Shown here: positions 591 to 27,408 of the stretch, piece after piece
How positions within the stretch are numbered: the first letter of the stretch is position 1
Layout of the letters: every line of letters begins with the position of its first letter
From: a virus
Virus record (IMG/VR): IMGVR_UViG_3300034101_000486
Span: 1 to 58,016 of that record
DNA length: 58,016 nucleotides
Strand: one strand, 5' to 3'
The notes under the pieces: generated by a model
What the model was told of the DNA's origin: nothing
What the model saw: the letters and a program-made list of their open reading frames with translations, nothing else
Database searches by the model: none
Translations under genes and position numbers: made by a program

Positions 591-1571
591 TCACGCTTTA
601 TTAGTGCGGTCATACTCGGCGTAGCGCTTGACGTATTTCATGCGCAACACGGGATCATCCCAAACGCCCGCTTCAATCAATGCTTGCTTACGCTCGGGAC
701 TGACGTAAATTTCTTTACGCGTTGTAGCTGGCGCGTGCTCACGTCCGGAACCTACTGCGGGACCACCTCTAGGGGTGCGCTCCTCGCGGTATTCACGGTC
801 GTCACGGGTTTGCTTGCGCTCGGCTTTGAACTTTTCAGGCAGGCGGCGAGCTGCGCGTCGGCGCAATTCATCCCAGTATTCCTGCGTCTGTGGATTGTAA
901 CCGTCCTTGGCCAATGATTGGTCAATAGCGATTACGATAGCGGAGTCTTCGTCGCGACCTTGCGAGTCGTACCACTTGTTTTCATCCATGAACTCCTTAG
1001 CGTAGTGCATGGTCATGTCGTCAAGTTGCTGCGCTGTGGGGCGTTGCTGGGCGGCTTGTTGCTTGGCGAATTGGAGTTGCTGCATCTTCTGCATCGCCTG
1101 ATCGCGATACTTCAACGCCTGCGCCACGTCAGCGCCGTTGCCTGCCTCTACCGCCTTAGCGATGACGCGGTCCGCCATCTCGGCATCATGCGACGCCTGA
1201 GCAATCTGCGCATCAAAGCTGCTGAGGTCTACCTGATGGGCTCGCTGCTCTTGAGCAGATACGCGGCGCTCAAGGTCATCATTGCGTTTACGCAGGAAGT
1301 CCAGCTCGAGTTTGTCGCGCTTGATGGCTTGATCGCGGCGCTCCTTGCGCTCAAGTTTTTCAAGTCTGCGTCGCTCGCGGATTGCGTCTCGCTCGTCGTC
1401 ATTACCGTCACCTTCATCCTCCTCGGCGGAAGACTTAGTGCGGTCATCCTCAGCGTCTTCTTGATCATCGTCCTGATCATCTAATTTATCTTGAGTCAGT
1501 TTTGACTCGTCCTCGACGATGATGATTTCTTCACCGCCCTTTTCGTCGTCTTCTTTCATCACATTAGCCAT
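591..1571 (-). CDS. Capsid scaffolding protein
   Basis: A 326-residue protein with the composition of a scaffold. Residues about 1-60 are extremely acidic (runs of E and D). Residues about 65-180 are heptad-like, rich in R, K, E, Q and A, and should form a long coiled coil. The C-terminal 80 residues are basic and ordered, as expected for the segment that binds coat protein. It sits after portal and co-chaperonin genes and before the capsid genes, the usual scaffold position in short-tailed phages. No protease gene is visible nearby, so the scaffold may exit intact, as in P22. Assignment rests on composition and position. Confidence 0.75.
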   Translation of the reverse strand: MANVMKEDDEKGGEEIIIVEDESKLTQDKLDDQDDDQEDAEDDRTKSSAEEDEGDGNDDERDAIRERRRLEKLERKERRDQAIKRDKLELDFLRKRNDDLERRVSAQEQRAHQVDLSSFDAQIAQASHDAEMADRVIAKAVEAGNGADVAQALKYRDQAMQKMQQLQFAKQQAAQQRPTAQQLDDMTMHYAKEFMDENKWYDSQGRDEDSAIVIAIDQSLAKDGYNPQTQEYWDELRRRAARRLPEKFKAERKQTRDDREYREERTPRGGPAVGSGREHAPATTRKEIYVSPERKQALIEAGVWDDPVLRMKYVKRYAEYDRTNKA

Positions 1572-1584
1572 AAATCATCTCCTT

Positions 1585-1998
1585 TCAGATGAATGCTCGG
1601 ATTGCCAACGGGTCACCAGTTACCTGCCCGATGATGTCCAAGTCGTTAAAAATCACAAACATTGCAGATTCATCTTTGCCAGGGATCTTTACTTCCCAGC
1701 GGTCGCCGCCGTACTTAGCCACGCGAACGTATTCACCGGCTTTGCACCACTCACCCTCTGGCCACGTCTTCATGTCATTACGGTTCTTGAAAGCCAGCGG
1801 ACCCATGGCAACCACTTTGCCAATCTGAGTGTTCCACTTCTCGGTTTCATTAGAGCCGTGAATATCGATGATGATACCACCAGCGGATTTCTTTTTGGGC
1901 GTTCGAATCTGAATCAGAACACGGCTTCCGAAAGGCTGAATTCCAGCATCTACTGCTGGGAAAGCCTCCGCCATTGCGTCCTCATAAGTCATTGTCAA
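1585..1998 (-). CDS. GroES-like co-chaperonin
   Basis: The protein has the GroES beta-barrel pattern: an N-terminal strand (QPFGSRVLIQI), a mobile-loop-like segment with hydrophobic tip (SAGGIIIDI), a central GKVVAMGP strand, the GEYVRVAKYGG turn and a final strand ending in an acidic stretch. GroES-type proteins such as T4 gp31 cap host GroEL during capsid protein folding. Its location between portal and scaffold genes suits that role. Start choice is open: a TTG at 1998 has the better spacing (7 nt) from an AGGAG site, while an ATG lies at 1992. It overlaps the end of the preceding small gene. Length (135-137 aa) exceeds host GroES (about 97 aa), mainly through the loop after GKVVAMGP. Confidence 0.7.
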   Translation of the reverse strand: MTMTYEDAMAEAFPAVDAGIQPFGSRVLIQIRTPKKKSAGGIIIDIHGSNETEKWNTQIGKVVAMGPLAFKNRNDMKTWPEGEWCKAGEYVRVAKYGGDRWEVKIPGKDESAMFVIFNDLDIIGQVTGDPLAIRAFI

Positions 1999-2179
1999 GG
2001 TTTTTCTCCTGGTCTAGAAGGTTTAAAAGTACGTTGATTGCCGCCTCATAACCGGCAACCATTCCCACGCGATACCCGTACTCAAAAGTGTCGCGAGTCT
2101 GAGGGCGCTTCAAGGCGTCAACAGCAAATGACTGCTGTTCTGCCTTGAGGCGATTCAGGAGTTGAGACTCAAGGTTCAT
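1982..2179 (-). CDS. Small conserved phage protein, 65 aa
   Basis: A 65-residue mostly helical protein containing RDTFEYGYRVGMVAGYEAA, a pattern I recognise from small proteins beside portal genes in uncultured phages. No function is known to me. Its ATG overlaps the stop of the preceding 45-residue gene (ATGA), and its end overlaps the co-chaperonin start, so the three are translationally coupled. Confidence 0.7.
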   Translation of the reverse strand: MNLESQLLNRLKAEQQSFAVDALKRPQTRDTFEYGYRVGMVAGYEAAINVLLNLLDQEKNLDNDL

Positions 2180-2313
2180 GCAGGAGTCTTAGGCGTGGCG
2201 GGGGCGGCAGGCAGCTTTTGACCGTCTACTTTTTCGCCCGCAGCCATGCGGTGGTGTTGCTTCACAAACGCGCCAGTCATAGGCACGGGGGTGTTGTTAG
2301 GTTTGTCGCTCAT
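2176..2313 (-). CDS. Very small protein, 45 aa
   Basis: A 45-codon frame begins MSDKPNNTPVPMTGAF and ends in a Pro/Ala-rich tail (PAAPATPKTPA). It starts 10 bp after the portal stop region with a GAGGAGAACG binding site and ends in an ATGA overlap with the next gene. The tight packing between portal and the 65-aa gene, plus a good ribosome site, supports expression. Function unknown. Confidence 0.65.
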   Translation of the reverse strand: MSDKPNNTPVPMTGAFVKQHHRMAAGEKVDGQKLPAAPATPKTPA

Positions 2314-2323
2314 AGCGTTCTCC

Positions 2324-11161: not shown

Positions 11162-11412
11162 TTGTTTTCTATCTGTGGTTGTGGTAATTTATCAATAAAC
11201 GCAGTCCCGAAGCGCACGCTGTCGCAGTCCTCAATAATCTCGTCGTTTAGAAACGCCTCCTCCATGTCGCCGTGGCAGTACACACGGAAGCGCTTGGCTC
11301 CGTGTGCAATGTCGTACATTGACTCAACGCGCTCAACAGGTTTGTTGCATATTGCACAAATGGGGAACTCATGTAACCCTTTGTCAAATTTGCTAACGGT
11401 GCTGATGTTCAT
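11158..11412 (-). CDS. Small putative metal-binding protein, 84 aa
   Basis: A CAIC pair (Cys19/Cys22) and a later CH pair (VYCHGDMEEA) suggest a zinc site of CxxC...CH type. The MNISTVSKFDKG opening and HGDMEEA segment are familiar from other phages, but no function is known to me. It lies in a run of coupled small genes. Confidence 0.65.
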   Translation of the reverse strand: MNISTVSKFDKGLHEFPICAICNKPVERVESMYDIAHGAKRFRVYCHGDMEEAFLNDEIIEDCDSVRFGTAFIDKLPQPQIENK

Positions 11413-12038
11413 GTTCTCTCCTTGATGTCGTAGAACCAGTCATCACCGGCAGACCACTTACGTGTGCCGTCCACGGTCCAGAGCCGTTGCGCCGCTTGAA
11501 AGTCGGGGAACTTCGTCTCAGCGGGTATCAAGCTCTGGTCGTACCACAGGCAGCGGTTGTTCGGCTGGCAGGCGAACTGCCCGTTGTCAAGGGCGATCCA
11601 GTTGAAGGACTTGTGCTCCTCGGCTTGCTCAGTGAAGGTCGTGTCCAGCTCCATTCCGTCGGCGCAGAAGTCCACGGTAAACAGGTAGCGCCCAAAGTGC
11701 CACTCCTTGTCCTTACCGAGGAACTTGACACCGAGGTTGCGCAGGGCGATCTTCTCAATGATTGTGAACCGGTAGCTCATGCAGTCCCACAGCTGAAGCG
11801 TATCAACCGGCAGGTTGCCCGCGTCAGCGTGCCATACGTAAGCATGTATAGGTAGCTTATCGTACAACGCGCCGTAGTTGGGTAGCAACGACTCAATGCG
11901 GAACACCTGCCCGCGCAGAGCCTTGAGGCTCACCCAGACTGCCGGTTCAAGCTCGTTGTGACCTTTGTGGTCGTTGTACAGGAACTCTCGCTTGACGTAG
12001 CACTTGAGCGGCGGTAATGAGGCAACGATGTAGCTCAT
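11409..12038 (-). CDS. Conserved phage protein, 209 aa
   Basis: A soluble, aromatic-rich protein starting MSYIVASLPPLKCYVKRE, with a middle segment WDCMSYRFTIIEK and a Trp-rich C-terminus (FNWIALDNGQFACQPNNRC, then WSAGDDWFYDI). The body resembles conserved proteins of unknown function in phage accessory regions. No catalytic motif is evident. It overlaps both neighbours by 4 bp. Confidence 0.65.
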   Translation of the reverse strand: MSYIVASLPPLKCYVKREFLYNDHKGHNELEPAVWVSLKALRGQVFRIESLLPNYGALYDKLPIHAYVWHADAGNLPVDTLQLWDCMSYRFTIIEKIALRNLGVKFLGKDKEWHFGRYLFTVDFCADGMELDTTFTEQAEEHKSFNWIALDNGQFACQPNNRCLWYDQSLIPAETKFPDFQAAQRLWTVDGTRKWSAGDDWFYDIKERT

Positions 12039-14946: not shown

Positions 14947-16496
14947 TGTTCTGTTTCTCCGTAAAAGAATTCCTCAAGCACGTTCCAGTATTGACCAGAG
15001 CGGCGTACAAGCACTGAGTCAGGTACGCGAGCGCCTTTCATTTGCCATGTCAGGGTGTCTGCGGGGGAAGGTAAGTTTACCGCAAGCTGCCGCGAACCGA
15101 AAAACTGGAGCGTCTTGCGGTCGGGGACTTCGGTGTTGATGAAATTGGTTCCGCGAATCTTGATGCCTTCCTCGCTCACGCAGTTGTAGTTGACGAGGAG
15201 GATGGGCACGGCGGGGTTGCGCTTTGTGCGGATGGCGACTGTGTTAGTTGATTCAACCCACATCTTGAGAACCGCGCCGTCCCGTGCGGACTGACCAGTC
15301 ATGGGGTCAATCGGCAACAGCTTATGAGCGCCGACCACCTTTGCCCGTTCACGCAGGGCGCGTTCTTTTGCGGGTATGGCTTCAACGGCTTCCTTCGAGT
15401 CTTCCTTGAAGAAGTTCTCATACATGTCAACACCGCCGAGCCGCTGCAGGTTGCCCACGAAGTCAAGCACGAGGCAGTTCTTTTTGCCGTCAGCTAGGCG
15501 CGTGCCCCGACCCTGAATCTGAACCCACAGAGAGGAGGAGAGAGTTGGTCTCAGGCACACTATGCAATCCAGCGGCGGGAAGTCAAAGCCGGTGGTAATC
15601 ATATCAACCGAGCAGAGCACGCGAGTCTCGCCTGACTTGAACCGGCGTAAGGAGTCGCTGCGCTCGTCGCGGGTGATTGACCCCGCCATGACGTCGGTCG
15701 TCCATCCGGTCTCAACGGCGATGACCTCGGCGGCTCGCTCGGCGGCTTCAATAGTCGGGCAGTAAACCGCAAGGTGCTTACGGGCGGCGGTTAGCTCGGG
15801 CAGGGAACGCGCCACTGCACGTAGCCATACTACGTCCTCACGGCTGTCAATGTCAGTCATCACGAAGTCGCCGTTAGTCTTGCGTGCGCCTTCAAGGTCA
15901 AGCTGTACGGTCGTCTCAACGCCGACTAACGGGCAGAGGTAGCCGTCGCCTACGGCTTGAGGTACGGTATAGCTATAGGCGAGTTGATCGAACCAGAACT
16001 GATCGCCCTCCCCGTGGATGACCCCGTTGTCCATGCGCCACGGCGTAGCGGTCATAGCGACGCGCCCAGCGTCACGGTAGCGGTGCAGTATTGACTCATA
16101 GAGCGAACGCTCGCCCTTGTTGTGCGGGACGCGGTGTGCTTCGTCTATGATGATGAGGTCAGGCGGTTGCATCTCAGCCTGAACGCCGAGTATGCTTTGA
16201 ATGGTGGCAAAGGTGACCGGCTCAAACCGGTCTTTGCGCTTGAGTCCGGCGCACACGATTCCTGGGGTGACTCCACTATAGCGCTCATAGGTAGCGGCGT
16301 TTTGCTCGACCAGCTGTTGAACGTGGGTGAGTGCCCAGACGCGGCGGTCAGTTTTGCTATAGTGATCCGCTAGGGCGGCAATGATGAGCGACTTGCCCGT
16401 GCCGGTAGCCAGCTGAAGCACAGGGTGGTGCTCACCCTCGAGCGACGCTATAGCGGCGTCGTAGGCTTCTTGCTGGTAAAATCTAAGTTGCATCAA
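14943..16496 (-). CDS. Superfamily 2 DNA helicase
   Basis: A 517-residue DEAH-type helicase. Motif I is ATGTGKS (about 30-36) and motif II is IIDEAH. Motif III follows as AMTATPW, and motif VI is QIQGRGTR. The opening MMQLRFYQQEAYDAA is the Q-motif-like start of type III restriction ResA/UvsW-like helicases. About 120 extra residues follow the core. Likely roles are fork remodelling or recombination, by analogy with UvsW. It is the first gene of the leftward replication operon, with a CTGGAGCA ribosome site and a promoter 30-57 bp upstream. Confidence 0.9.
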   Translation of the reverse strand: MMQLRFYQQEAYDAAIASLEGEHHPVLQLATGTGKSLIIAALADHYSKTDRRVWALTHVQQLVEQNAATYERYSGVTPGIVCAGLKRKDRFEPVTFATIQSILGVQAEMQPPDLIIIDEAHRVPHNKGERSLYESILHRYRDAGRVAMTATPWRMDNGVIHGEGDQFWFDQLAYSYTVPQAVGDGYLCPLVGVETTVQLDLEGARKTNGDFVMTDIDSREDVVWLRAVARSLPELTAARKHLAVYCPTIEAAERAAEVIAVETGWTTDVMAGSITRDERSDSLRRFKSGETRVLCSVDMITTGFDFPPLDCIVCLRPTLSSSLWVQIQGRGTRLADGKKNCLVLDFVGNLQRLGGVDMYENFFKEDSKEAVEAIPAKERALRERAKVVGAHKLLPIDPMTGQSARDGAVLKMWVESTNTVAIRTKRNPAVPILLVNYNCVSEEGIKIRGTNFINTEVPDRKTLQFFGSRQLAVNLPSPADTLTWQMKGARVPDSVLVRRSGQYWNVLEEFFYGETEQ

Positions 16497-16524
16497 GTGC
16501 TCCAGTTATACGTTATCACTGCGA

Positions 16525-16553
16525 ATTATGCCTGAGATTTTTTGAAAAGGCAA
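16525..16553 (-). promoter_or_regulatory. Sigma-70 promoter TTGCCT-N17-CATAAT
   Basis: On the minus strand TTGCCT (16548-16553) and CATAAT (16525-16530) are 17 bp apart. The spacer begins TTTTCAAAAAA, as in the divergent promoter at 16667. It would give a leader of about 20 nt before the helicase. Between the two divergent promoters (16554-16666) I see no other recognisable element. Confidence 0.7.
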
Positions 16554-16666
16554 ACTCTTTGAAAAATTTATTTGGCGTGACATTGAATCACCCACTCCGG
16601 AAGCCTAATGATCATAGGGGAAATAGCCAATAACCAACTGCGGTGAAGGGTCATTAAAAATATCGC

Positions 16667-16696
16667 TTGCCTTTTCAAAAAAGTCAAGCCTATAAT
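16667..16696 (+). promoter_or_regulatory. Early rightward promoter TTGCCT-N18-TATAAT
   Basis: TTGCCT (16667-16672) and a perfect TATAAT (16691-16696) flank an 18-bp spacer containing TTTCAAAAAAG. It is divergent from the helicase promoter and sits 32 bp before the first plus-strand gene. It is the likely main promoter of the early operon including the base-modification genes. Confidence 0.75.
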
Positions 16697-16728
16697 TCAA
16701 TCCATACCTTGATAACTGGAGAACTCGA

Positions 16729-16980
16729 ATGACACACGACCGCCGCTACGACAAATTAATCGCTGATTGCCGCAACATTGAAAGCCGCAGCAATCGCCTC
16801 GCCGTTGACGAAATCATTGACAGCGCTCGCATTAACGCTAACGACACCGTCCGCGACGAGAAGCTCGACTTGAGCGAGTGGGATCGCATGTTCACCGCGA
16901 CCCTCGCTGGCATTTTGAGCGAAGGCGGTCGTAATCATCACGTCGTCGCTTTTTTCACTAAACGTGGTATCACTTTTTAA
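16729..16980 (+). CDS. Small early protein, 83 aa
   Basis: First gene of the rightward operon. It has a strong ACTGGAGAACTCGA ribosome site. The protein is charged and helical (RRYDKLIADCRNIESR, then DLSEWDRMFTATLAGIL) with a basic C-terminus. I do not recognise the family. As the first early gene it could target the host, but that is only positional inference. Confidence 0.7.
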   Translation: MTHDRRYDKLIADCRNIESRSNRLAVDEIIDSARINANDTVRDEKLDLSEWDRMFTATLAGILSEGGRNHHVVAFFTKRGITF

Positions 16981-17007
16981 TAACTTTATAACTCGGAGAA
17001 CTCAATC

Positions 17008-17307
17008 ATGAACATCAACAAAACAATCATCGCTCGCATCGAAGAGTACCGCGCTACTAACAAGAACCCTTGCAAGAGCTACGCCACTGAAGCCGCCGCT
17101 GAGAAGGCTACCGCTCAAATGGCGCAGGACGTCGCTAACTACTTCCACAAAGAGCGCGGTGTTGAGGCTCGCCCTGCTCAGTACATCGTCATCTATAACG
17201 AAGCATGGGGTCGCTGGGTCGGCGCTATCAACATGACCGAGCTGATTCAGCGCTCATCAAGCACTGGCGGCTACATCGGATACTGCACAGGCTTCTTCGT
17301 TTTCTAA
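17008..17307 (+). CDS. Small early protein, 99 aa
   Basis: A soluble protein with an Ala-rich helix (ATEAAAEKATAQMAQDVANY) and an aromatic strand region (YIVIYNEAWGRWVGA). The CGGAGAACT leader is a near copy of that before the previous gene. No known domain recognised. Confidence 0.65.
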   Translation: MNINKTIIARIEEYRATNKNPCKSYATEAAAEKATAQMAQDVANYFHKERGVEARPAQYIVIYNEAWGRWVGAINMTELIQRSSSTGGYIGYCTGFFVF

Positions 17308-17335
17308 TTTCAACTCAATAACTCAATAACTCACC

Positions 17336-18166
17336 ATGACTTCAATCGACAACATGACTAACGATCTGAGCGCTGCTCCGGTCTATCGGGACACCTGCGC
17401 TAAGTGCGGCGGCGATGGTCGCTGGAAGGGCTTCGGCGACTGCACCGGTGACATGCGCTGCACCATGTGCAACGGCGTGGGCTACAAGGAGTTCAAGACC
17501 TCCTCTGACGAACGCGCCAAGGCTCGCGAAGCCGCCGCTCGCGCTAAGGCTAAGAAGGAAGCCGAGCAGCGTGCTCGCGCTGAGCAGTGGTTCGCCGCTC
17601 ACCCCGCAGAAGCCGCATGGATGCGCGAGTCTGCTGAGGGCTTTGAGTTCGCTCAGTCTATGATAGACGCTGTGTACGCGTATGGTCACTTGACCGAGCG
17701 TCAGATGGAAACTGTGCAGCGCCTCACTCAGAAGGCTTTAGAGCGTAAACAGCAGTGGGCTAAGGAACGTGCTGAGCGCGAAGCCGCAGCGCCAGAGGTT
17801 ACCTCTGAGCGTCTTGAGCAGTCATTCCGCAACGCCAAGGCTAAAGGTCTCAAGTGGCCACGCATCACCATGGGCGAAATGGTCATCAAACCTGCTGGTG
17901 AGAACAGCAAGAATCCTGGTGCGCTCTACGTGACTGAGTATGGCGCATACCTCGGCAAAGTGATGAATGGTAGATTCCTGAAGGTGCGCGAATGCGGCAC
18001 TGAGCAAGAGCAGAAGGTCGTTGGCTTGATCAACGATCCCGTGGGCGCAGCGGAAGCATACGGTCACCTGACCGGTCACTGCTGCATTTGCAACCGAGAG
18101 CTGACCAATGCTGAAAGCGTGTCTCGCGGTATCGGTCCAATCTGCGCCGATAAATTCGGCTGGTAA
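17336..18166 (+). CDS. Zinc-finger protein with DnaJ-like and DUF6011-like ends
   Basis: A 276-residue protein. The N-terminus has CAKCGGDG and CTMCNGVG pairs, the CxxCxG spacing of a DnaJ-type zinc finger. Residues about 60-160 are a long charged Ala/Arg/Lys/Glu helix. The C-terminus has CCICNRELTNAESVSRGIG followed by PICADKFGW, a second zinc ribbon resembling DUF6011. Both ends probably bind zinc and nucleic acid or protein. The gene starts after a leader with repeated ATAACT but a weak Shine-Dalgarno. Confidence 0.75.
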   Translation: MTSIDNMTNDLSAAPVYRDTCAKCGGDGRWKGFGDCTGDMRCTMCNGVGYKEFKTSSDERAKAREAAARAKAKKEAEQRARAEQWFAAHPAEAAWMRESAEGFEFAQSMIDAVYAYGHLTERQMETVQRLTQKALERKQQWAKERAEREAAAPEVTSERLEQSFRNAKAKGLKWPRITMGEMVIKPAGENSKNPGALYVTEYGAYLGKVMNGRFLKVRECGTEQEQKVVGLINDPVGAAEAYGHLTGHCCICNRELTNAESVSRGIGPICADKFGW

Positions 18167-18191
18167 TAACTTAATAACTAGGAGAACTGTA

Positions 18192-18368
18192 ATGGTATCG
18201 CGTATCACATTCCTGCTCATCCTGATCGCGCTCGGCGCGGTTGGGACGTTTGATTACGAGAACGCACTTGACGAAGAAGCCGCCTACTGCGACCGCCTGC
18301 GCAACGAAGTGCACACTGACTACAACCGCATCAAGAGCACCTGCGTGGCTCGTTACTGGGGCAAGTAA
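18192..18368 (+). CDS. Small membrane-anchored protein, 58 aa
   Basis: The ATG chosen follows an ideal AGGAGAACTGTA site and gives an N-terminal hydrophobic helix (SRITFLLILIALGAVGTF) followed by a charged domain with two Cys. It could be a signal-anchored periplasmic protein. Function unknown. Confidence 0.65.
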   Translation: MVSRITFLLILIALGAVGTFDYENALDEEAAYCDRLRNEVHTDYNRIKSTCVARYWGK

Positions 18369-18369
18369 C

Positions 18370-18486
18370 ATGAACACCCCTAACTGGCCATTCCCGCCCA
18401 TCACTGGTCCTGTGCCTTGGACTGCTAAGCAGATCCGCGAGTATGCGCGTAAGCAGATCGAGCAGACCGAAAAAGCCCCCTTTTAA
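18370..18486 (+). CDS. Tiny Pro/Trp-rich protein, 38 aa
   Basis: A 38-codon frame starting 1 bp after the previous stop: MNTPNWPFPPITGPVPWTAK, then a charged helix (QIREYARKQIEQTEKAPF). The N-terminal Pro/Trp pattern is one I associate with small phage proteins. No separate ribosome site is obvious, so it may depend on coupling. Confidence 0.5.
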   Translation: MNTPNWPFPPITGPVPWTAKQIREYARKQIEQTEKAPF

Positions 18487-18511
18487 TCTAGATTTTCCTT
18501 GGAGATTTGAA

Positions 18512-18940
18512 ATGAATACAGTAAACTTTTCCAGCATGACGACTCCTCAGTTGGTGTCGTTCTACAACCGCCATAGCACAACACCGGTCAAGCGCTTTAG
18601 TGACCGTAAAACCGCCGAGCGGCGTTGTGCTGAGGTCTTTGAGAGCTTGCTCTCCCCTGTACCTACTAGCAAAGTGATTAAACAAGTGGTTGATACCTCT
18701 ACCCGCCCCGTCATGAAGGACTCGCTCAAGCTCGACCGCACCATCATCTGCGTGAACACCGGCGACACGTGGAAGAACGCCTATCAGATGTGGCGCGACA
18801 ATCCTGACTGGATGACCAGCGCTCAGCAAGACCGCCTGACCGCACAGCTCTACGCCGCCGCTAAGGTCGGTGAGCAGAAGATTATTGAAATCAACGCCCG
18901 CAGCTTCATGCTCGTCAACATTAAAGGCGCAAAGAAATGA
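18512..18940 (+). CDS. Early protein, 142 aa, possible DNA-binding
   Basis: The start follows TTGGAGATTTGAA. The N-terminus (MTTPQLVSFYNRHSTTPVKR, then FSDRKTAERR) matches a short helical module common in phage and plasmid proteins whose role is unknown. The remainder is alpha/beta with basic patches. The last 4 bp overlap the next gene. Confidence 0.6.
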   Translation: MNTVNFSSMTTPQLVSFYNRHSTTPVKRFSDRKTAERRCAEVFESLLSPVPTSKVIKQVVDTSTRPVMKDSLKLDRTIICVNTGDTWKNAYQMWRDNPDWMTSAQQDRLTAQLYAAAKVGEQKIIEINARSFMLVNIKGAKK

Positions 18941-19161
18941 GCGACAACCAGCCGAAATTAGAAGGTGTCAAATGGTTCACGAGCAGTAAGGGTCTCGTGG
19001 GCATCGTGGCTGTCAGAATTGAGACCGGCGACATCAAGTTCTACATTGGTCCCGCTGATGGTTTTAATGAAGTGATCGACTCTAATCTGATCATGTCACA
19101 CGGAGCGCCCTTCCCTGAGGACGCAGGCTACGCATTGTTTATAAGAGAGGAATTGAAATGA
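18937..19161 (+). CDS. Small protein before the modification cassette, 74 aa
   Basis: A compact beta-rich protein (GVKWFTSSKGLVGIVAVRIE, then GDIKFYIGPADGFNE). It overlaps the PLP-enzyme start by 4 bp (ATGA), so it belongs to the same transcript as the base-modification genes. No family recognised. Confidence 0.65.
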   Translation: MSDNQPKLEGVKWFTSSKGLVGIVAVRIETGDIKFYIGPADGFNEVIDSNLIMSHGAPFPEDAGYALFIREELK

Positions 19162-20114
19162 GTACGGTATTTCCTAACCTATCGCTCGACCGCAGCGTGG
19201 TCAAGTGGGAGCAACACCTCGGCACGCAGACGCCGTGGGAGAACCGCAAGGGGTTGTGGTTCAAACGCGAGGATTACTTCGCCCCGCTCGGCTATAGCGG
19301 TCCTAATGGCTCAAAGATGCGCCAGCTGATTTGGTACGTCAATCGCTTCCGCGAGGGCAAGACCCACATTGTCACCGGCGCGAGCATTCAGTCCCCGCAG
19401 CTGAGCATGAGCGCTATCGTCGGTGCGCATTACGGCTTACGCGCTCGGCAGATCGTCTATAGCAAGCCTGAGACTGTGTTGCGTCATGAGAACCCGCGCA
19501 TCGCTTACGGCTTTGATGCTGAGTTTGAGTTCGCCTCTGGTCCGTACAATCCTATCCTGCAGCGCAAGGTGGTTGACCTCACGCAGCCGACGTCTCTGGT
19601 CGTTGAGTACGGCATCACTGTGCCGCATGACCGCTACCCTGAGGAAGATGTGCGTAAGTTTCACGAGGTCGGCGCTCATCAGACAACTAACATTCCGCCT
19701 GAAGTCAAGCGCCTCATCGCTCCTGCTGGGTCTTGTAACTCGCTGACCAGCATCATGCTCGGTCTGAGCCGCGACTCGCACAACATTGATGAACTGTTCA
19801 CCATTGGTATCGGTCCAGACAAGCGCGGCTGGATGCGTCAGCGCCTTGCGTATATCGGCGTGGACATTGACAAGCTGCCGTTCAAGTGGAAACACTTTAG
19901 CCTGCATGACAGCGGCTACAGCAAGTATAGCGATCACTTCACCGGTGAGACTTTTGACGGCATCAGGTTCCACCCGACCTACGAGGCAAAGATGTGGCGT
20001 TGGTTGACACACCATAACCAGTTAGATTATGATGACCACACGGCGTTCTGGATCGTCGGCAGCGCCCCAGATACGAAGATTGTTGAACCTTTTTATACTA
20101 GGAAGCCCTCATGA
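19158..20114 (+). CDS. PLP-dependent enzyme of fold type II, DNA-modification associated
   Basis: A 318-residue member of the tryptophan synthase beta/ACC deaminase superfamily. The segment GYSGPNGSKMRQL places the predicted PLP lysine at Lys53. TGASIQSPQLSMSAIVGA matches the substrate-binding loop, and APAGSCNSLTSIMLGL the phosphate-binding Gly/Ser loop. PLP enzymes of this type occur in thymidine-hypermodification loci, where they tailor the amino acid attached to the base, for example by decarboxylation. It overlaps the small gene before it and the transferase after it by 4 bp each. The exact reaction is inferred from neighbours. Confidence 0.8.
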   Translation: MSTVFPNLSLDRSVVKWEQHLGTQTPWENRKGLWFKREDYFAPLGYSGPNGSKMRQLIWYVNRFREGKTHIVTGASIQSPQLSMSAIVGAHYGLRARQIVYSKPETVLRHENPRIAYGFDAEFEFASGPYNPILQRKVVDLTQPTSLVVEYGITVPHDRYPEEDVRKFHEVGAHQTTNIPPEVKRLIAPAGSCNSLTSIMLGLSRDSHNIDELFTIGIGPDKRGWMRQRLAYIGVDIDKLPFKWKHFSLHDSGYSKYSDHFTGETFDGIRFHPTYEAKMWRWLTHHNQLDYDDHTAFWIVGSAPDTKIVEPFYTRKPS

Positions 20115-21106
20115 AAGATTACCGCCTGCCGGAGAACCGCGCAGAGTACTTTACTGCGCTTTACAAGATGAACCTTGAGCACGGGGTCATGCCAGGACTC
20201 GTCTACTTGTACATGCCTGAAATCGCTCGCCGTTACGGGTGGAACGCTGAGCAGAAGCTCTGGTTCGCCTTCCTGAACGGCATGACGCAGAACCCAATCA
20301 CCTCGCTGCGGTTGTTTGATCAGCTACCCGTCACCCCTCCCGCTGGTGCCCAGCTGACACGCTTCACTGAATGGTTCAACGCCGAGTGGGATACGCTTCA
20401 GTTTGACACCGACCGCCGCTATCAGAAGCGCGACACCATTGAGGCTATCAAGACCTACGCTAAGTTGGTTGAGGAGTTCGGCTCTCAAGAGGCGATGCTG
20501 ACCGGTAAGACCTACGAGGAGTTGTGGGACCTCGTGCGTAACCGCTACTACAGCTTCGGTCGCCTGTCATCGTTCAGCTACCTCGAGTATGTCTACCTGA
20601 ACGGCTACGGCGCTGACTGTGATGACCTGCTGTTCAGTGACAAGTCGGGCAGCAAGTCACACCGCAACGGAATGCTGTTCCTGATTGGCAAAGACGAGTT
20701 GGTGTGGGACAAGCGCCTGCCTAACGGACAAGACGGCAACTACCCTAAATTCAATCTGATGTGCGGCTTCCTCGCTGCGGAGGCTGACAAGTTTGTTGAC
20801 ACCTTCAGAGCCGCGAACCCTGACGTGCCTAACACCGGTCGGTTCACTATGGAGTCAAACCTCTGCACGTTCAAGAATCATTTCTTCGGTCGTCGGTATC
20901 CAGGAGTCTACGCTGACATGGCGCAAGACCGTATTGAGTGGGCGGATGCGCGTGATCAGAGCGCCTATACCGAGGTGTTTAAAGATATGCGCTCTCAGCT
21001 GCTGCCGGAATGGTTGCGCCGCGAGTGTTCTGAGACGTCATTCAAGTTGGCGGGGGCGGTGTTCCCTGCGACCGGTTCACCCTACAGAGCGGAGCACTTT
21101 TTATGA
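20111..21106 (+). CDS. Amino acid:DNA transferase-like protein (aGPT-Pplase clade)
   Basis: A 331-residue helical protein with WFAFLNGMTQNPITSLRLF near residues 57-75, RNRYYSFGRLSSFSYLEYV and a CDDLLFSD segment. These are features I recognise from the alpha-glutamyl/putrescinyl thymine pyrophosphorylase group. In phages such as ViI and M6 such proteins displace the pyrophosphate or phosphate on 5-hydroxymethyl-dU in DNA and attach an amino acid. It is translationally coupled to the PLP enzyme before it and the kinase after it. Family assignment is by pattern memory. The amino acid donor (Ser, Gly, Glu or other) is unknown. Confidence 0.75.
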   Translation: MKDYRLPENRAEYFTALYKMNLEHGVMPGLVYLYMPEIARRYGWNAEQKLWFAFLNGMTQNPITSLRLFDQLPVTPPAGAQLTRFTEWFNAEWDTLQFDTDRRYQKRDTIEAIKTYAKLVEEFGSQEAMLTGKTYEELWDLVRNRYYSFGRLSSFSYLEYVYLNGYGADCDDLLFSDKSGSKSHRNGMLFLIGKDELVWDKRLPNGQDGNYPKFNLMCGFLAAEADKFVDTFRAANPDVPNTGRFTMESNLCTFKNHFFGRRYPGVYADMAQDRIEWADARDQSAYTEVFKDMRSQLLPEWLRRECSETSFKLAGAVFPATGSPYRAEHFL

Positions 21107-21678
21107 ACGTCATACTACGTATTGCCGGCACGTTCGGCTCGGGCAAGACCACCGCCATGCGCGACTTCTTCAACTACCCGCACACAGTTTTGATGAGCGG
21201 TAAAAAGATCGCTGGCTACAAAGTTGACGCCAGCGCTGCCGGAATCACGCAGCCGATCTTTGTGGTTGGTAAGTATGACAACACTTGCGGCGGCACAGAC
21301 GCTATCAAGACACAGGCTGAGATTGCCGAGAAGATCCTGAAAGCACACCCCCATGGCCATGTGTTATACGAAGGCGCTTTGGTGTCTGCGAGCGGACTCG
21401 CCGGTCAGGTGACGCAAGCCATTCACCCCACCGGCTGCGACGTGTACGCATTCCTAGACACGCCGCAAGACCTCTGCGTTGAGCGCGTTAAGGGTCGTCG
21501 CCTCGCCGCTGGCAACGACAAAGAGTTCGACCCGAAGAACCTGATTGACAAGTTTGAGTCGGTCGTGAACTGTTATAAAAACCTGCGCAATGAAGGTTCG
21601 TATGACGTCCGTCGTATTGATCACACTGACCCGCACCCTCAGCTAGTAGAAATCATAAAGGAATATGAAAATGCGTGA
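21103..21678 (+). CDS. 5-hydroxymethyl-dU DNA kinase (P-loop)
   Basis: A 191-residue P-loop kinase with Walker A GTFGSGKTT at 9-17. VVGKYDNTCGGTDAI (about 54-68) is a substrate-loop signature I associate with phage 5-hmdU DNA kinases. A Walker B-like VLYEGALVS strand and a lid with CVERVKGRRLAAGN follow. The kinase phosphorylates 5-hydroxymethyl-dU within DNA, activating it for amino-acid transfer. It overlaps the transferase stop by 4 bp and the helical-domain gene by 14 bp. Confidence 0.85.
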   Translation: MNVILRIAGTFGSGKTTAMRDFFNYPHTVLMSGKKIAGYKVDASAAGITQPIFVVGKYDNTCGGTDAIKTQAEIAEKILKAHPHGHVLYEGALVSASGLAGQVTQAIHPTGCDVYAFLDTPQDLCVERVKGRRLAAGNDKEFDPKNLIDKFESVVNCYKNLRNEGSYDVRRIDHTDPHPQLVEIIKEYENA

Positions 21679-22591
21679 TGAATGCCCGTACCCGATGCCG
21701 ACCGCCGAGACTGTGTGCTCGATGGAAGGTCTACTTTACTTCATCTGGGAGCGTGAGGCAATCCGTATCGCTCGCGAAAACGGTCACAGCGCTCCGTGGA
21801 CTAAAGACCCCGTGCTCGCTAAGTACAAGTTTACCAACATCCACCGCAGCGACGACCGCGTCTCGCAGTGGGTCATTGATAAGTTTATAGAACCCGCAGC
21901 GGCTAACGGAGATGAAGACCTGTGGTTCACGCTCTTGATCGCTCGCCTGATCAACTGGCCACCCACGCTACAGGCGCTCATCAACAAGGGTGTCATCCCC
22001 TGCAAACCTGAGAGCTTTGACGCTGACATGTTTGAGCACACGCTTGAGCGCCTGAAGAACGACGGCAAGAAGGTCTACTCCGGCGCGTACATGCTCTACC
22101 CGACTAAGATGGAGCCAGGAGGCAACAAGTCCAAGGCGGTGGCAAAGTACATCATCGGCAGCGCTATTGAGAACGCTGACAATATTCGCGCCGCGCTGTG
22201 GGTGAACGAGAACGGCATGTCTATTGAGAAGTTTGTCGCTGAGTTGAGCAAGTGCTTCGGCATCAGCACCTTCATAGCCGGTCAGGTGGCTGCTGATTTG
22301 ACCTACACCGGCATGGACGTTGAGGACTTGTTCACGTACGCGCCTATCGGTCCTGGCAGTTCACGCGGTCTGAATTACCTGCTGGGTAAAGCGCCGTTCG
22401 CCACGTGGAAGCAGAAAGAGTTCAACGCCGAACTGAGTAACATCTTCAGTCAGATCATTGAGCAGCTAGAGATTGTTGACATGACGCTGCACGATGTGCA
22501 GAACTGTATGTGTGAGTTCAGCAAATACTGCCGCGCCGTCCTCGGCGAAGGTAAACCTAAAACAACTTATCAACCAGAAACGGAGTTCTAA
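21665..22591 (+). CDS. 5-hmdU DNA kinase helical-domain (HMUDK_hel-like) protein
   Basis: A 308-residue helical protein with FIWEREAIRI, then APWTKDPVLAKYKFTNIHR and SDDRVSQWV. The pattern PWT-DP-L--Y-F-N-R--DR is the signature of the helical domain fused to or found beside 5-hmdU DNA kinases. It is distantly related to DNA glycosylases and probably handles the modified base in DNA. Start is ATG 21665 or 21671, behind an AAAGGA site. It lies within the five-gene cassette. Confidence 0.8.
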   Translation: MKMRDECPYPMPTAETVCSMEGLLYFIWEREAIRIARENGHSAPWTKDPVLAKYKFTNIHRSDDRVSQWVIDKFIEPAAANGDEDLWFTLLIARLINWPPTLQALINKGVIPCKPESFDADMFEHTLERLKNDGKKVYSGAYMLYPTKMEPGGNKSKAVAKYIIGSAIENADNIRAALWVNENGMSIEKFVAELSKCFGISTFIAGQVAADLTYTGMDVEDLFTYAPIGPGSSRGLNYLLGKAPFATWKQKEFNAELSNIFSQIIEQLEIVDMTLHDVQNCMCEFSKYCRAVLGEGKPKTTYQPETEF

Positions 22592-22592
22592 A

Positions 22593-23630
22593 ATGGAGTT
22601 AGTCGTACGCAACGTCAATCAGGCTTTCAGCGAGATATTCTGGAAGCTCAAAGTGCTCAACCTACAACCTGAGCAGACCCGAAATGGTCCCGCTATCGTG
22701 TACCCTGAGATGGTGACCACGGTCTATAAGTGCCCGTCAGAGCGCGTGCTGTTCCACAAAGGGCGCGACGCTAACCCGATCTTTCACCTGATGGAGTCGA
22801 TCTGGATGCTCGCCGGACGTAACGATGTTGCGTTCCTGCAACAGTTCAACCGGCGCATGGTGGAGTTCAGCGACGACGGCAAGACATTCAACGCCGCCTA
22901 CGGCTACCGCTGGCGTAAGCACTTCGGTCATGACCAGCTTGACGAAGTCATCAAGACCCTGCGCCGCGACCCTGCCAGCCGTCAAGCCGTGGTGCAGATC
23001 TGGGACGACGCTGATTTGAACAAGAAGACCAAGGACAAGGCGTGCAACATGCAGGTCATCTTTGATACACGCGGCGGTCGCCTGAACATGACCGTAATCA
23101 ACCGGTCTAACGATATCTGGTGGGGTGCGTACGGCGCGAACGCTGTGCACTTTAGTTTCCTGCAGGAGTTCGTTGCCGCTGCGATAGCGTACAGAATCGG
23201 CGTGTACCGTCAGGTGAGTAATAATTTCCACTTATACACAGAACTTTATAACGCGAAAGATTACTTAGTCATGCCGCCCGATGCGAGCAACTACGACCAT
23301 TACTCCAACGGCGCAGTGCGCCCACTGCCTATCATGTTGAACGGCGAGTACAAACTGTTCCTAGCTGAATGTGAGATGTTCTGTCACGACCCGTACAACG
23401 AGCGGATTCACTATGCTAACCCGTTCTTTGAGCACGTGGCTCGCCCTATGGCTATGATCAGTCGTGTGCGCAAGATTCACGCGGGTGACGGACGTAGCTA
23501 CGCCGCTAAGATCCGCGCCGAGGACTGGCGTCGCGCCGCGTTTGAGTGGATTGACCGCCGTGACCACGCACGCAAGATCAAAGAGGAAGATGACGAGATA
23601 AATGAGTTTAGAAAGGCTGAGAAAAAATAA
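22593..23630 (+). CDS. dUMP hydroxymethylase (thymidylate synthase homologue)
   Basis: A 345-residue member of the thymidylate synthase fold. The catalytic Cys is Cys151 (KACNMQVIF). Twenty residues later comes Arg171-Ser-Asn-Asp174 (NRSNDIWWGAYGANAVHF), matching the Cys146/Arg166/Asp169 spacing of the E. coli enzyme. Asn183 is in the place that selects dUMP over dCMP. Phage homologues make 5-hydroxymethyl-dUMP with methylene-tetrahydrofolate, and the neighbouring DNA kinase and transferase strongly favour that product over dTMP. Start is the ATG after CGGAGTTCTAA, 1 bp after the previous stop. The C-terminus has a charged extension (about 320-345). Confidence 0.85.
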   Translation: MELVVRNVNQAFSEIFWKLKVLNLQPEQTRNGPAIVYPEMVTTVYKCPSERVLFHKGRDANPIFHLMESIWMLAGRNDVAFLQQFNRRMVEFSDDGKTFNAAYGYRWRKHFGHDQLDEVIKTLRRDPASRQAVVQIWDDADLNKKTKDKACNMQVIFDTRGGRLNMTVINRSNDIWWGAYGANAVHFSFLQEFVAAAIAYRIGVYRQVSNNFHLYTELYNAKDYLVMPPDASNYDHYSNGAVRPLPIMLNGEYKLFLAECEMFCHDPYNERIHYANPFFEHVARPMAMISRVRKIHAGDGRSYAAKIRAEDWRRAAFEWIDRRDHARKIKEEDDEINEFRKAEKK

Positions 23631-23631
23631 C

Positions 23632-23661
23632 TTGCCTTGTGCGAGAAATGTGAGCTATAAT
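23632..23661 (+). promoter_or_regulatory. Promoter TTGCCT-N18-TATAAT with overlapping palindromic operator
   Basis: TTGCCT (23632-23637) and TATAAT (23656-23661) flank an 18-bp spacer. A perfect inverted repeat, ATGTGAGC-N7-GCTCACAT (23648-23670), is centred on the -10 box, so a dimeric repressor bound there would block RNA polymerase. It drives the HD-nucleotidase and polymerase genes separately from the upstream modification cassette. Confidence 0.75.
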
Positions 23662-23695
23662 TGCTCACATAACTGCTAACTGGAGAACTTTTACT

Positions 23696-24184
23696 GTGAA
23701 ACATACTCTTGATTTTATTCTGGCTGGAAGCGAAGTAAAGCGCTATCACACCGTAACGACGCTGGTGTCCGAGACTGTCGGTCATCACTCGCACGGCGTG
23801 GCTATGCTGTGCTTGCTCTTTGACCCTATGGCGAGCCGTCAACTGCTGATGGCTGCGATGTTTCACGACCTCGCGGAACACCAAACCGGTGACATACCCT
23901 CGCCGGCAAAACGCGAGTTCGGCATCGGTGGCAAGGTTGATGAGTTAGAACAGCGCCTCATGTACGCTGCCGGAATCGTCATGCCCCAACTCTCCGCTGA
24001 AGACAAGCGCACCCTCAAGCTCGCCGACGTGGCTCAAGGGGCGCTGTTCTGTGCGCGGGAAATCTCACTCGGTAACAAACGCATGCGCCGCGTCTTTGAC
24101 CGCTACATCAGCTACGCGGAAGAGCTGATTCTGGTCGGTCGCGAGCGCGAAATCTTCAACATGATTAAGGACTACGCAGCATGA
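23696..24184 (+). CDS. HD-domain nucleotidase, YfbR/DatZ-like
   Basis: A 162-residue HD-superfamily phosphohydrolase. VKRYHTVTTL then VGHHSHGVAML gives the first His (His31), MFHDLAEHQTGDIPSP gives His57-Asp58, and KLADVAQG gives Asp111, as in the 5'-deoxynucleotidase YfbR. Related phage proteins include DatZ, a dATP triphosphohydrolase. Next to a hydroxymethyl-dU pathway, an enzyme that removes dTMP or dTTP would be useful, but the substrate is inferred. The start codon is GTG, after an ACTGGAGAACTT leader copied from other operon starts. Confidence 0.8.
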   Translation: MKHTLDFILAGSEVKRYHTVTTLVSETVGHHSHGVAMLCLLFDPMASRQLLMAAMFHDLAEHQTGDIPSPAKREFGIGGKVDELEQRLMYAAGIVMPQLSAEDKRTLKLADVAQGALFCAREISLGNKRMRRVFDRYISYAEELILVGREREIFNMIKDYAA

Positions 24185-24450
24185 GCGCGAATGATAAACA
24201 GATTGGCGGTAGCCATTACAAGCACGGCGGCGAGGAACACTGGGACCGCGTCAATCGCTTAGGCTTGAACTACTTTCAAGGCGCGGCTACAAAGTACGTT
24301 GAGCGTTGCTACCTGAAAGGTAACACTGTTCAAGACTTGCAGAAAGCCGTTCACTTCCTTGAGAAGTTGATCGAGATCGAGCAGCGTAAGGCTGATGCGT
24401 CTTGCGGTGACGGCAGTGAGCCGACCCGTGGTTATGTCAATCAAGACTGA
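24181..24450 (+). CDS. DUF3310 protein
   Basis: An 89-residue protein with QIGGSHYK, EHWDRVNRLGLNYFQG, ATKYVERC and KAVHFLEKLIE, the full DUF3310 pattern. These helical proteins are common beside phage nucleotide and replication genes and lack a defined activity. It overlaps the HD gene by 4 bp and the polymerase start by up to 17 bp. Confidence 0.85.
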   Translation: MSANDKQIGGSHYKHGGEEHWDRVNRLGLNYFQGAATKYVERCYLKGNTVQDLQKAVHFLEKLIEIEQRKADASCGDGSEPTRGYVNQD

Positions 24451-26293
24451 AATGGGCACTTGGGTGTTTGATACTGAAACTCTGCCCAACCGGACTTTGT
24501 TCTGCGCAAAGAACATTGAGACGGGCGAGTGGTTTGACCTGTGGCGTCATGATGACGACGCACCGGCTCGGCTCACGCGCTTTGTGCAGCAGTCGGACAG
24601 TACCTTCATCGGGTTCAACAGCAAGTCATTTGACAACGCGGTGGTGGCGGCGTTCTGCCTCGGCAGGACTGAGATTGAGATCAAGCGTATTGCCGATGAC
24701 ATCATCACGAACCGCCTGTCGCCGTGGAATGCTATGCGCAAGCACAATTTGCGTGACATCATTCTTGACGACATTGACTTGATTGAGGTCGCCCCGTCGT
24801 TCGTAGGTCTGAAAGCCTACGGCGCTCGCATGCATATGCCCAAGCTGCAAGACATGCCGATCGTTCACGACGAGATGATCACCCCTGATCAAGAGCCGAT
24901 GCTGCTCGAGTACTGCCACAACGACGTTGACACCACCGCCGAGCTGTTGAATCAGCTTGAGGGTGAGTTGTTGCTGCGTGTTGAGATGAGCCGCCGTTAC
25001 GGAGCTGACATGCGTAGCAAGTCGGACTCTCAAATGGCTGAGCAGGCGTACATCACCAGCATGGGTCTCAAGCGTCAAGACAATGAGATCCCGAAGACTG
25101 TCAGATATACGCCTCCGGCATTCCTGAAGTTTATGGATGCCGAGCTACAGGCTCTGCTTGATCGCGTCTCTGAGCACGTGTTCAATATGAATCAGGTGAC
25201 TGGGCACGTTCAACTGCCGGACTTCCTCGGCTTGAAAACAATCAAGTTTGGTTCAGGTGAGTACCAGCTCGGCGTGGGCGGCATTCATAGCGTGCATGAC
25301 AAGCAGGTGTGTCACCTCGCCGGTGATGATCACATGTGCGACATTGACGCGGCTTCGTTCTACCCGAGTATTATTCTTGAGTGCGGGTTTGTACCCGCCG
25401 CGCTCGGTAAGCGCTTCGTCGAGGAGTACCGCAAGATTTACGAGCGCCGCCTTGAGGCTAAGCGCACGGGCGATAAGATCACCGACGCCACGCTGAAGAT
25501 CTCACTGAACGGCACGTTCGGCAAGCTCGCCAGTCGTTACTCAGTGTTGTACTCGCCAGACTTGATGTTGGCGGTGACGCTGACCGGACAGTTCACCCTG
25601 CTCATGTTGATTGAGTGGCTTGAGCGAGCAGGGGCGGTCACCCTGTCAGCTAACACTGACGGTATTGCGATTCGTTACACTAAGGAGCAGAAAGAGCTAG
25701 TTGAAAAGGTGGTCAACAAATTTAGCGAGATTTCAGGCTTTGTGTTTGAGTACACGCCGTACCGCGTCCTCGCTATGAAAGACGTCAACAATTACATCGC
25801 GATCAAACCCGATCGCAAACTCAAAGTGAAAGGCATCTATGCGCCGCTCTCTCTTAAGAAAAACCCAACGGCTCAGGTATCGTCAGATGCTGTGGGGGCG
25901 TGGTTGGCAGGCGGTACTCCGTTTGAAGAGACGATTAAGTCTGCTCCGTTCACGCACTTTATCAGTGCCCGAAATGTTACCGGCGGCGGTCAGCAGAACG
26001 GCGTTTACCTTGGCAAAGTCGTACGGTGGTATCAATCAACGGACGCTAGCAATGAACCTATCAAGTACGCTACGAACGGTAACAAGGTTCCAAAGACCGA
26101 AGGCGCTAAGGCGTGCATGACGATGCTTGACAAAATAACTCATCCGGTTGATCTTGACTATGACTGGTATAACAAAGAGGCGATAAAAATCGCCATCGCG
26201 GTTGGCTGCGCACAGTATCTCACTCCGGAGCAACTTGCTCTTGTGGCACCGCCACCTAAAAAATCTAGGAAAGTTAAAAATGCAACACGGTAA
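24434..26293 (+). CDS. Family B-like DNA polymerase with 3'-5' exonuclease
   Basis: A compact polymerase of about 619 aa. The exonuclease domain has VFDTET (Exo I), GFNSKSFDNAVV (Exo II) and YCHNDVDTT (Exo III). The polymerase domain has motif A CDIDAASFYPSIIL, motif B KISLNGTFGKLAS and motif C SANTDGIAI. In motif C the usual DTD is NTD, so the first metal ligand is Asn. I recall SANTDG-type motifs in other phage polymerases, so this may define a subfamily rather than a defect. No TPR or terminal-protein domain is evident. Start is uncertain: ATG 24434, or ATG 24452 just after the upstream TGA. Confidence 0.85.
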   Translation: MSIKTEMGTWVFDTETLPNRTLFCAKNIETGEWFDLWRHDDDAPARLTRFVQQSDSTFIGFNSKSFDNAVVAAFCLGRTEIEIKRIADDIITNRLSPWNAMRKHNLRDIILDDIDLIEVAPSFVGLKAYGARMHMPKLQDMPIVHDEMITPDQEPMLLEYCHNDVDTTAELLNQLEGELLLRVEMSRRYGADMRSKSDSQMAEQAYITSMGLKRQDNEIPKTVRYTPPAFLKFMDAELQALLDRVSEHVFNMNQVTGHVQLPDFLGLKTIKFGSGEYQLGVGGIHSVHDKQVCHLAGDDHMCDIDAASFYPSIILECGFVPAALGKRFVEEYRKIYERRLEAKRTGDKITDATLKISLNGTFGKLASRYSVLYSPDLMLAVTLTGQFTLLMLIEWLERAGAVTLSANTDGIAIRYTKEQKELVEKVVNKFSEISGFVFEYTPYRVLAMKDVNNYIAIKPDRKLKVKGIYAPLSLKKNPTAQVSSDAVGAWLAGGTPFEETIKSAPFTHFISARNVTGGGQQNGVYLGKVVRWYQSTDASNEPIKYATNGNKVPKTEGAKACMTMLDKITHPVDLDYDWYNKEAIKIAIAVGCAQYLTPEQLALVAPPPKKSRKVKNATR

Positions 26294-26639
26294 TCAACGC
26301 ACAGTCTACGTAGTACAAGTGGACAACAAGAAAGACCTATCCGACGCGAAGCAATATGGCTCGCTGCGGGCGGTGTTCGGCAACCCACGCAAGCCTTACG
26401 ATACCGTAGGCATGCTGGCTAAGGCGCGTCGCGTCTTGAAAGATTGGGAATCAGGTGACTACCTGCTGATGATTGGCGACCCCACGCTCTGCGCGGTGTG
26501 TATGTCAGTCGCTAGCGAAAACAACGACATCATCAACATCTTGAGCTGGGATCGGGACTCGTTCTCGTACATGCCTCAGCGATGGGACTTCGGTCAGATG
26601 GGTCTGGATTATGACGATTTTGAAACAGCGGAAGACTAA
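26280..26639 (+). CDS. Conserved phage protein, 119 aa
   Basis: The start lies 14 bp inside the polymerase gene behind CTAGGAAAGTT. The protein begins MQHGNQRTVYVVQVDNKKDL, contains YLLMIGDPTLCAVCM and ends in an acidic tail. It looks like a small alpha/beta protein common after phage polymerases. Function unknown. Confidence 0.65.
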   Translation: MQHGNQRTVYVVQVDNKKDLSDAKQYGSLRAVFGNPRKPYDTVGMLAKARRVLKDWESGDYLLMIGDPTLCAVCMSVASENNDIINILSWDRDSFSYMPQRWDFGQMGLDYDDFETAED

Positions 26640-26667
26640 CCGCTCAAAACCACGAAAGGAGAACAAA

Positions 26668-27408
26668 ATGTCAAACTGGCAAGATGCCTTGAGAAAAGGT
26701 AAACAAGATGTACCGCCCCGTATTTGTATCTACGGGGGTCACGGTATTGGTAAGTCCACCTTGGCTAGCAAGTTCCCAGCGCCGATTTTTATCAGCACTG
26801 AGGACGGGCTAGACTCGTTGGATGTAACGAGCTTCCCGCGTGCAACCAAGGTTGAGGACGTGGTCGACAACATCAAGACCCTCATCAAAGAGGAGCATGA
26901 GTTCAAGACTGTCGTCATCGACTCGGTTGATTGGCTCATTGAGCCGCTCATCGTGAGCAACGTGGAGTCCTCGCATGATGCTAAAGACCTTGCCTATGGC
27001 AAAGGTCAGATGCTCGTCGCTGAGGAGTTCCGCGAGATCCTGCAGGGGTTGGACGTGCTGCGCGTAAAGCGTCGTATGAACATCGTGCTGATCGCTCACG
27101 CTGCCGTGGTGAAGTTTGAAGACCCCCGCACCGAGCCTTATGACCGCTACCAGCCGAAGCTGCCTAACCGCTGCAACGCGCTGCTGCAGGAGTGGGCTGA
27201 CGTGCTTGCGTTTGCCGCGTTCAAGGTGATCATTCGCAAGTCTGACTCCGGTTTCAATAACCAGAAGACCCGTGGTGTAACGACAGGTGAGCGCTTGCTT
27301 CACTTTGTTGAGAACCCCGCGTTTGCTGCAAAGAACCGCTACACCTGTCCCGAAGAGGTCGAGATGACAATCGAAAACCTCGAGAAACTTATCCCCATCG
27401 CTAAATAA
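26668..27408 (+). CDS. Sak4-like RecA-type ATPase
   Basis: A 246-residue AAA_24/RecA-like ATPase with Walker A GGHGIGKST (23-31), ISTEDGLDSL, Walker B TVVIDSVDWL and IVLIAHAAV as sensor. Sak4-type proteins are single-strand annealing ATPases that work with an SSB-like partner, which here is the next gene. The start follows AAAGGAGAACAAA. Confidence 0.85.
   Translation: MSNWQDALRKGKQDVPPRICIYGGHGIGKSTLASKFPAPIFISTEDGLDSLDVTSFPRATKVEDVVDNIKTLIKEEHEFKTVVIDSVDWLIEPLIVSNVESSHDAKDLAYGKGQMLVAEEFREILQGLDVLRVKRRMNIVLIAHAAVVKFEDPRTEPYDRYQPKLPNRCNALLQEWADVLAFAAFKVIIRKSDSGFNNQKTRGVTTGERLLHFVENPAFAAKNRYTCPEEVEMTIENLEKLIPIAK

Follow-up and report, generated by a model that had tools for sequence, protein, structure and literature searches.

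Phage ViI makes its modified thymidine by transferring serine and then decarboxylating the adduct, and the PLP enzymes of both ViI and Pseudomonas phage M6 are decarboxylases. The combination of such modules in phage genomes was reportedly anticipated by Lee et al. in 2022, so the novelty of the operon described here is limited to a variant of the known pathway. The base established in ViI is 5-(2-aminoethoxy)methyl-dU (5-NeOmdU; PMC6449724, PMC11721090), and the kinase of the pathway is reported to be sequence-specific, with resistant sites carrying TG or TC (PMC7653180, PMC6449724). The operon analyzed here, from the uncultivated virus record IMGVR_UViG_3300034101_000486 (the whole 58,016-nt stretch is termed the window), is a thymidine-hypermodification operon of this known kind, but a mosaic one.

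Results

Gene content and conservation of the operon

Five plus-strand open reading frames (19158-23630; Table 1) encode the set that a reading of the sequence alone had named: a PLP fold-II enzyme, an amino acid:DNA transferase (ADDT), a 5-hmdU DNA kinase, its helical-domain partner and a thymidylate synthase homologue. Profiles, trees and a predicted fold place all five as that sequence-only reading had them, and reading frames, families, selection and conserved order agree on a five-gene thymidine-hypermodification cassette. Its description of the genes as mostly overlapping by 4 bp holds for the first two junctions, but the third overlap is 14 bp and the last junction is a 1-bp gap. The synthase frame is open from 22494, and its start was placed at Met 22593, not at the first ATG, because the alignment to homologues begins there. 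Each cassette gene has a strong PHROG match (the names "terminase small subunit" for the kinase and "threonine dehydratase" for the PLP gene were judged misleading), and the 74-aa reading frame before the PLP gene has none.

Purifying selection on all five genes is strong (dN/dS 0.05-0.14 for orthologous alleles against close relatives). Among the viral loci collected with the ADDT and the PLP enzyme (78 and 80, respectively), most complete relatives, on dozens of uncultivated phage contigs, retain the order PLP-ADDT-kinase-helical partner-synthase-HD; given this order and these ratios, the operon is not a chance arrangement. A megablast search of positions 15000-27000 against phage records returned no match, leaving the operon without a named close relative, and the PLP alignment found no relative in 84,980 bacterial and archaeal species genomes, and hence no clue to the host. 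A search of the window for a terminal repeat found none, which makes its completeness uncertain.

A promoter-like motif, TTGCCT-N17/18-CTATAATT, recurs in the window at 16667 and 23632 and, on the minus strand, at 42279 and 576; the inverted repeat at the 23632 copy is operator-like. Elsewhere, positions 11409-12038 (minus strand) match phrog_3704, "ferredoxin" (4.9e-73), without a Pfam family.

Table 1. Features of the window and of related loci (coordinates are those of the sequence named in the first column).
Sequence	Position	Strand	Feature	Remarks
Window	16667..16696	+	Promoter-like site TTGCCT-N18-TATAAT	Ahead of rightward genes
Window	18937..19161	+	74-aa ORF	4-bp overlap with PLP start; 65-84% in close relatives
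Window	19158..20114	+	PLP fold-II enzyme, 318 aa	ViI gp226-like; proposed decarboxylase of DNA-bound amino acid
Window	20111..21106	+	Amino acid:DNA transferase (ADDT, aGPT-Pplase2), 331 aa	ViI/actinophage clade
Window	21103..21678	+	5-hmdU DNA kinase, 191 aa	Allele class A; P-loop GTFGSGKT
Window	21665..22591	+	HMUDK helical-domain partner (aGPT-Pplase1), 308 aa	PF18723
Window	22593..23630	+	Thymidylate synthase-fold dUMP hydroxymethylase (putative), 345 aa	phrog_5131
Window	23632..23661	+	Promoter-like motif, synthase-HD intergenic	Inverted repeat ATGTGAGC/GCTCACAT around -10
Window	23696..24184	+	HD-domain 5'-deoxynucleotidase (YfbR-like)	Downstream neighbour; PF12917 1.3e-10
L006	7753-8334		Kinase compared with window kinase	
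L016	5072-5653		Kinase compared with window kinase	
L076	7996-8577		Kinase compared with window kinase	
L056	2315-3061		~250-aa methyltransferase-fold gene (predicted)	Directly upstream of ADDT
L068	6237-7004		~250-aa methyltransferase-fold gene (predicted)	Directly upstream of ADDT
L066	3461-4219		~250-aa methyltransferase-fold gene (predicted)	Directly upstream of ADDT
L071	2436-3209		~250-aa methyltransferase-fold gene (predicted)	Directly upstream of ADDT

Affiliations of the tailoring and core genes

For the PLP enzyme and the ADDT, BLAST finds homologues in ViI and not in M6. The PLP enzyme is 32% identical to ViI orf226 over its full length (2e-54), has no BLAST match to M6 gp52 and no Pfam match of its own, and is linked to the M6-type PLP enzymes by profile comparison (95.7%, 1e-8). 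Its predicted fold, modeled from 34 relatives (pLDDT 91.7), finds D-Cys desulfhydrase and ACC deaminase as best PDB matches (Foldseek 1e-10 to D-Cys desulfhydrase), and the invariant Lys53 aligns with the GNKxRK region of both: the model thus bears out the earlier fold-II assignment, with Lys53 as the putative Schiff-base lysine. When the window, ViI and Montesquieu enzymes are aligned, a PAGSCNS loop is retained in nearly all rows and the C-terminal motif HPxYExK...FWIxG in 10 of 10; M6 gp52 has a similar C-terminal end (YDxKxW...FWNIG). A phylogeny of the PLP enzyme, suggested earlier as a check, clusters it with ViI and outside the M6/PaMx11 clade (forks 100/100).

The transferase matches PF18724 at 67.1 bits (2.6e-18; cut-off 26.2), which upholds its assignment to the aGPT-Pplase clade, and is 27% identical to ViI orf247 (BLAST, 8e-27). 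Its tree separates the window group, ViI, Ackermannviridae-like phages and actinophages from M6, PaMx11, phiW-14, Pam3 and Gordonia (100/100), and by profile comparison both sides form one superfamily. Within the former, the closest cultured homologues belong to Mycobacterium and Glutamicibacter phages (36-37%), and the sister of the window group is formed by Mycobacterium phage Zemanar and Glutamicibacter phage Montesquieu, not by ViI itself; serine, probably the amino acid loaded by this enzyme, is therefore a best guess and not a demonstration.

The remaining genes lie nearer to M6 and PaMx11. The kinase scores 25.8 bits against PF18748 (HMUDK_HMUD1), just under the 27-bit cut-off, and matches the PaMx11, M6 and ViI kinases by BLAST (1.9e-18 to 2.5e-8), the nearest being that of PaMx11 (34%, 1.9e-18). 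As had been proposed, its neighbour is a helical-domain partner (PF18723, HMUDK_hel, 3.4e-44; 30% to M6 gp55, 4e-38); this protein and the synthase are nearest to M6, CN1 and Bhz59 (30-32% and 45-46%, respectively). PaMx11 likewise has its genes arranged as kinase-helical partner-synthase-HD; M6, CN1 and Pam3 show this arrangement with additional genes, and in all four phages the HD gene follows the synthase.

The synthase is a thymidylate synthase homologue, as read earlier (PF00303, 1.3e-22; phrog_5131, 6e-105; 45% to M6 gp58), and appears dUMP-hydroxymethylase-like, being nearest to hydroxymethylases: its best PDB match is CMP 5-hydroxymethylase (3.5e-23), with E. coli thymidylate synthase at 6e-11 and true thymidylate synthases at about 1e-11. 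Cys151, Arg171 and Asp174 keep the spacing of the E. coli enzyme, as first noted, but Asn183 does not, standing 9 rather than 8 residues past the Asp. This Asn occupies the pyrimidine-reading place, where an Asp would be expected in enzymes of the dCMP type.

Several enzymes of the known routes were searched for with positive controls. Radical SAM (PF04055) was absent from the window and 13 relatives and was detected in M6; acetyltransferase PF13508 and the PaMx11-type FAD enzyme were absent from the window, and both were detected in PaMx11; the second kinase, HMUD2 (PF18747), was absent from the window and was detected in ViI. No Nmad5-type gene stands between the window's helical partner and synthase, the place of M6 gp56. 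The earlier impression that the cassette lacks radical-SAM and acetyltransferase genes therefore held up in profile searches. Because the core genes are M6/PaMx11-like and the HMUD2 of ViI is missing, the cassette is, judging by these affinities, a hybrid: a ViI-type tailoring pair (PLP, ADDT) on an M6/PaMx11-type core.

Kinase alleles and tailoring-slot variants among relatives

The kinase falls into two allele classes that cover 61 of 63 non-redundant contigs (37 in class A, including the window, and 24 in class B), with identities of 69-79% within and about 44-49% between classes, and a dN/dS between classes of 0.26-0.34. Three relatives (L006, L016 and L076) are 80-99% identical to the window in almost every cassette and replication gene that they share with it (the exceptions being the small reading frame before the PLP gene and, in L006, one helicase gene), but only 48-49% identical in the kinase; the kinases of L007 and L009, in turn, are 94% identical to that of the window. 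Between the window and L006, DNA identity drops at the kinase start and returns at the kinase stop, indicating that the whole kinase gene was exchanged. On the helical partner plus synthase tree the class label changes at least 8 times, 4 of these changes being forced by strongly supported branches. Since the kinase is reported to be sequence-specific, allele exchange may switch the target motif, a hypothesis drawn from these comparisons.

The tailoring slot also varies, holding a PLP gene, a PLP gene plus a methyltransferase-fold gene, another PLP gene or none. In a subset of relatives (e.g., L056, L068 and L066) a gene of ~250 aa lies between PLP and ADDT, and in L071 and L074 it lies upstream of the ADDT with no PLP gene detected; the window lacks this gene. 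Pfam gives no informative match for it, but the predicted structure (pLDDT 81) resembles class I SAM methyltransferases, among them MnmM, TYW2, Trm1 and M.BseCI, and the protein alignment shows an EPFGGCGVFS / GELD / DFPFF signature. In L066, positions 969-4219 hold a row of Tet/JBP oxygenase, small ADDT-like protein, PLP, methyltransferase-fold protein, ADDT and another kinase, a gene content that points to another origin of 5-hmdU and includes two transferases.

The ViI-type PLP gene is absent altogether from L043 and L064, and a divergent PALP gene whose C-terminal end resembles M6 gp52 lies elsewhere in L043 and L037. Such a divergent M6-like gene was seen in two contigs without the ViI-type enzyme (L169:2272-3192, minus strand, and L179), which weakened the idea that contigs of this kind merely make the amino-acid adduct; on the 57.5-kb contig G002/L064 no PLP gene was found. 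In L025 (6710-6772), 21 residues of the PLP C-terminus persist immediately before the ADDT, apparently a trace of PLP gene loss.

Proposed chemistry and its alternatives

From the identities, clades, motifs, gene order, selection and absences observed, we infer each reaction, the amino acid, the product and the protection as follows. The thymidylate synthase-fold enzyme would make 5-hydroxymethyl-dUMP, to be incorporated into DNA at replication; once in DNA, its hydroxymethyl group would be phosphorylated by kinase and helical partner at sequences that they prefer; the ADDT would exchange that phosphate for a free amino acid (serine, joined through its hydroxyl, being the most likely); and the PLP enzyme would decarboxylate the adduct to 5-NeOmdU or a very close analogue, which, at part of the T positions, would confer restriction resistance. 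We hold it as nearly certain that the pathway belongs to the thymidine-hypermodification class, and the operon very probably replaces part of the DNA thymine with an amino-acid-derived base that escapes restriction enzymes. That the genes instead serve nucleotide metabolism or have decayed, in DNA with T or plain 5-hmdU, could be argued from a pathway supported by homology alone and a kinase just under its family cut-off; the low dN/dS, the order kept across contigs and the coherence of a set of pathway-specific families make this very unlikely.

The ViI-like short route, already preferred in the sequence-only reading, is probable, with 5-NeOmdU or a very close analogue as the base at some of the T positions: both trees and the missing radical SAM, FAD enzyme and acetyltransferase speak for it, and the M6/PaMx11-like core and missing HMUD2 qualify the likeness to ViI. 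In an M6-like route, a glycine adduct would be isomerised by a radical SAM enzyme encoded elsewhere and decarboxylated to 5-NedU. The three core genes and the HD gene would suit this route, but it was rejected for want of radical SAM, even in the 13 relatives, and for an ADDT and a PLP enzyme outside the M6 clades; with no Nmad5-type gene at the gp56 place either, we regard it as the most improbable alternative. The chances that the base is exactly 5-NeOmdU are about evenly balanced. Against the ViI-like route stand the modest identity to the ViI enzymes (27-32%), an ADDT closer to actinophage enzymes, the absent HMUD2, a PLP enzyme without the long insertion of ViI gp226 and a Montesquieu PLP homologue about equally similar. 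The same pathway logic could yield a new base through an ADDT that loads an amino acid other than serine, or through a PLP enzyme that carries out different chemistry (elimination, racemisation). This reading, rather unlikely but well ahead of the other two, draws on the grouping of the ADDT with actinophage enzymes and not directly with ViI, on a PLP fold nearest to D-Cys desulfhydrase/ACC deaminase and not to decarboxylases, and on relatives that gain a methyltransferase-fold gene or swap the PLP enzyme; the lysine and C-terminal motifs common to the window, ViI and M6 PLP enzymes argue against it.

Discussion

These comparisons add a large group of uncultivated phages to the map of DNA hypermodification. 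The compact five-gene operon could be expressed as a single unit for reconstituting the ViI chemistry. So far only indirect evidence assigns the TG/TC preference of the modification to the kinase, and two natural alleles in one genetic background permit a direct test. Methyltransferase-fold variants predict further bases, none of which, to our knowledge, has yet been described. We suggest, tentatively and with some doubt, that the kinase is an exchangeable specificity module, whole-gene swaps changing the T motifs modified, and that together with the varying tailoring slot it would give related phages different bases at different motifs.

Among the named systems, Salmonella phage ViI (5-NeOmdU; Ackermannviridae) shares the clades of the PLP enzyme (orf226) and ADDT (orf247) and has the synthase, first kinase and helical partner, but its genes are scattered whereas those of the window are clustered; it has HMUD2 and the PLP insertion, both missing here, its ADDT is only 27% identical, and the window's core genes are nearer to M6. 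Pseudomonas phage M6/YuA (5-NedU) shares the order kinase-helical partner-(...)-synthase-HD and a synthase of 45% identity, but has radical SAM and Nmad5, which the window lacks, and an ADDT and PLP enzyme of other clades. Glutamicibacter phage Montesquieu (gp41-42) and Mycobacterium phage Zemanar (gp3) have the closest cultured ADDTs, and in Montesquieu a related PLP enzyme adjoins the ADDT as in the window, but kinases (Ploopntkinase3 in Montesquieu) and gene order differ. Pseudomonas phage PaMx11, with the nearest known kinase, has a similarly contiguous ADDT ... kinase-helical partner-synthase-HD, but its tailoring slot holds an FAD enzyme and an acetyltransferase where the window has a PLP enzyme upstream of the ADDT. 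The proposed change of target motif by kinase swapping, finally, resembles restriction-modification systems, in which specificity subunits are exchanged.
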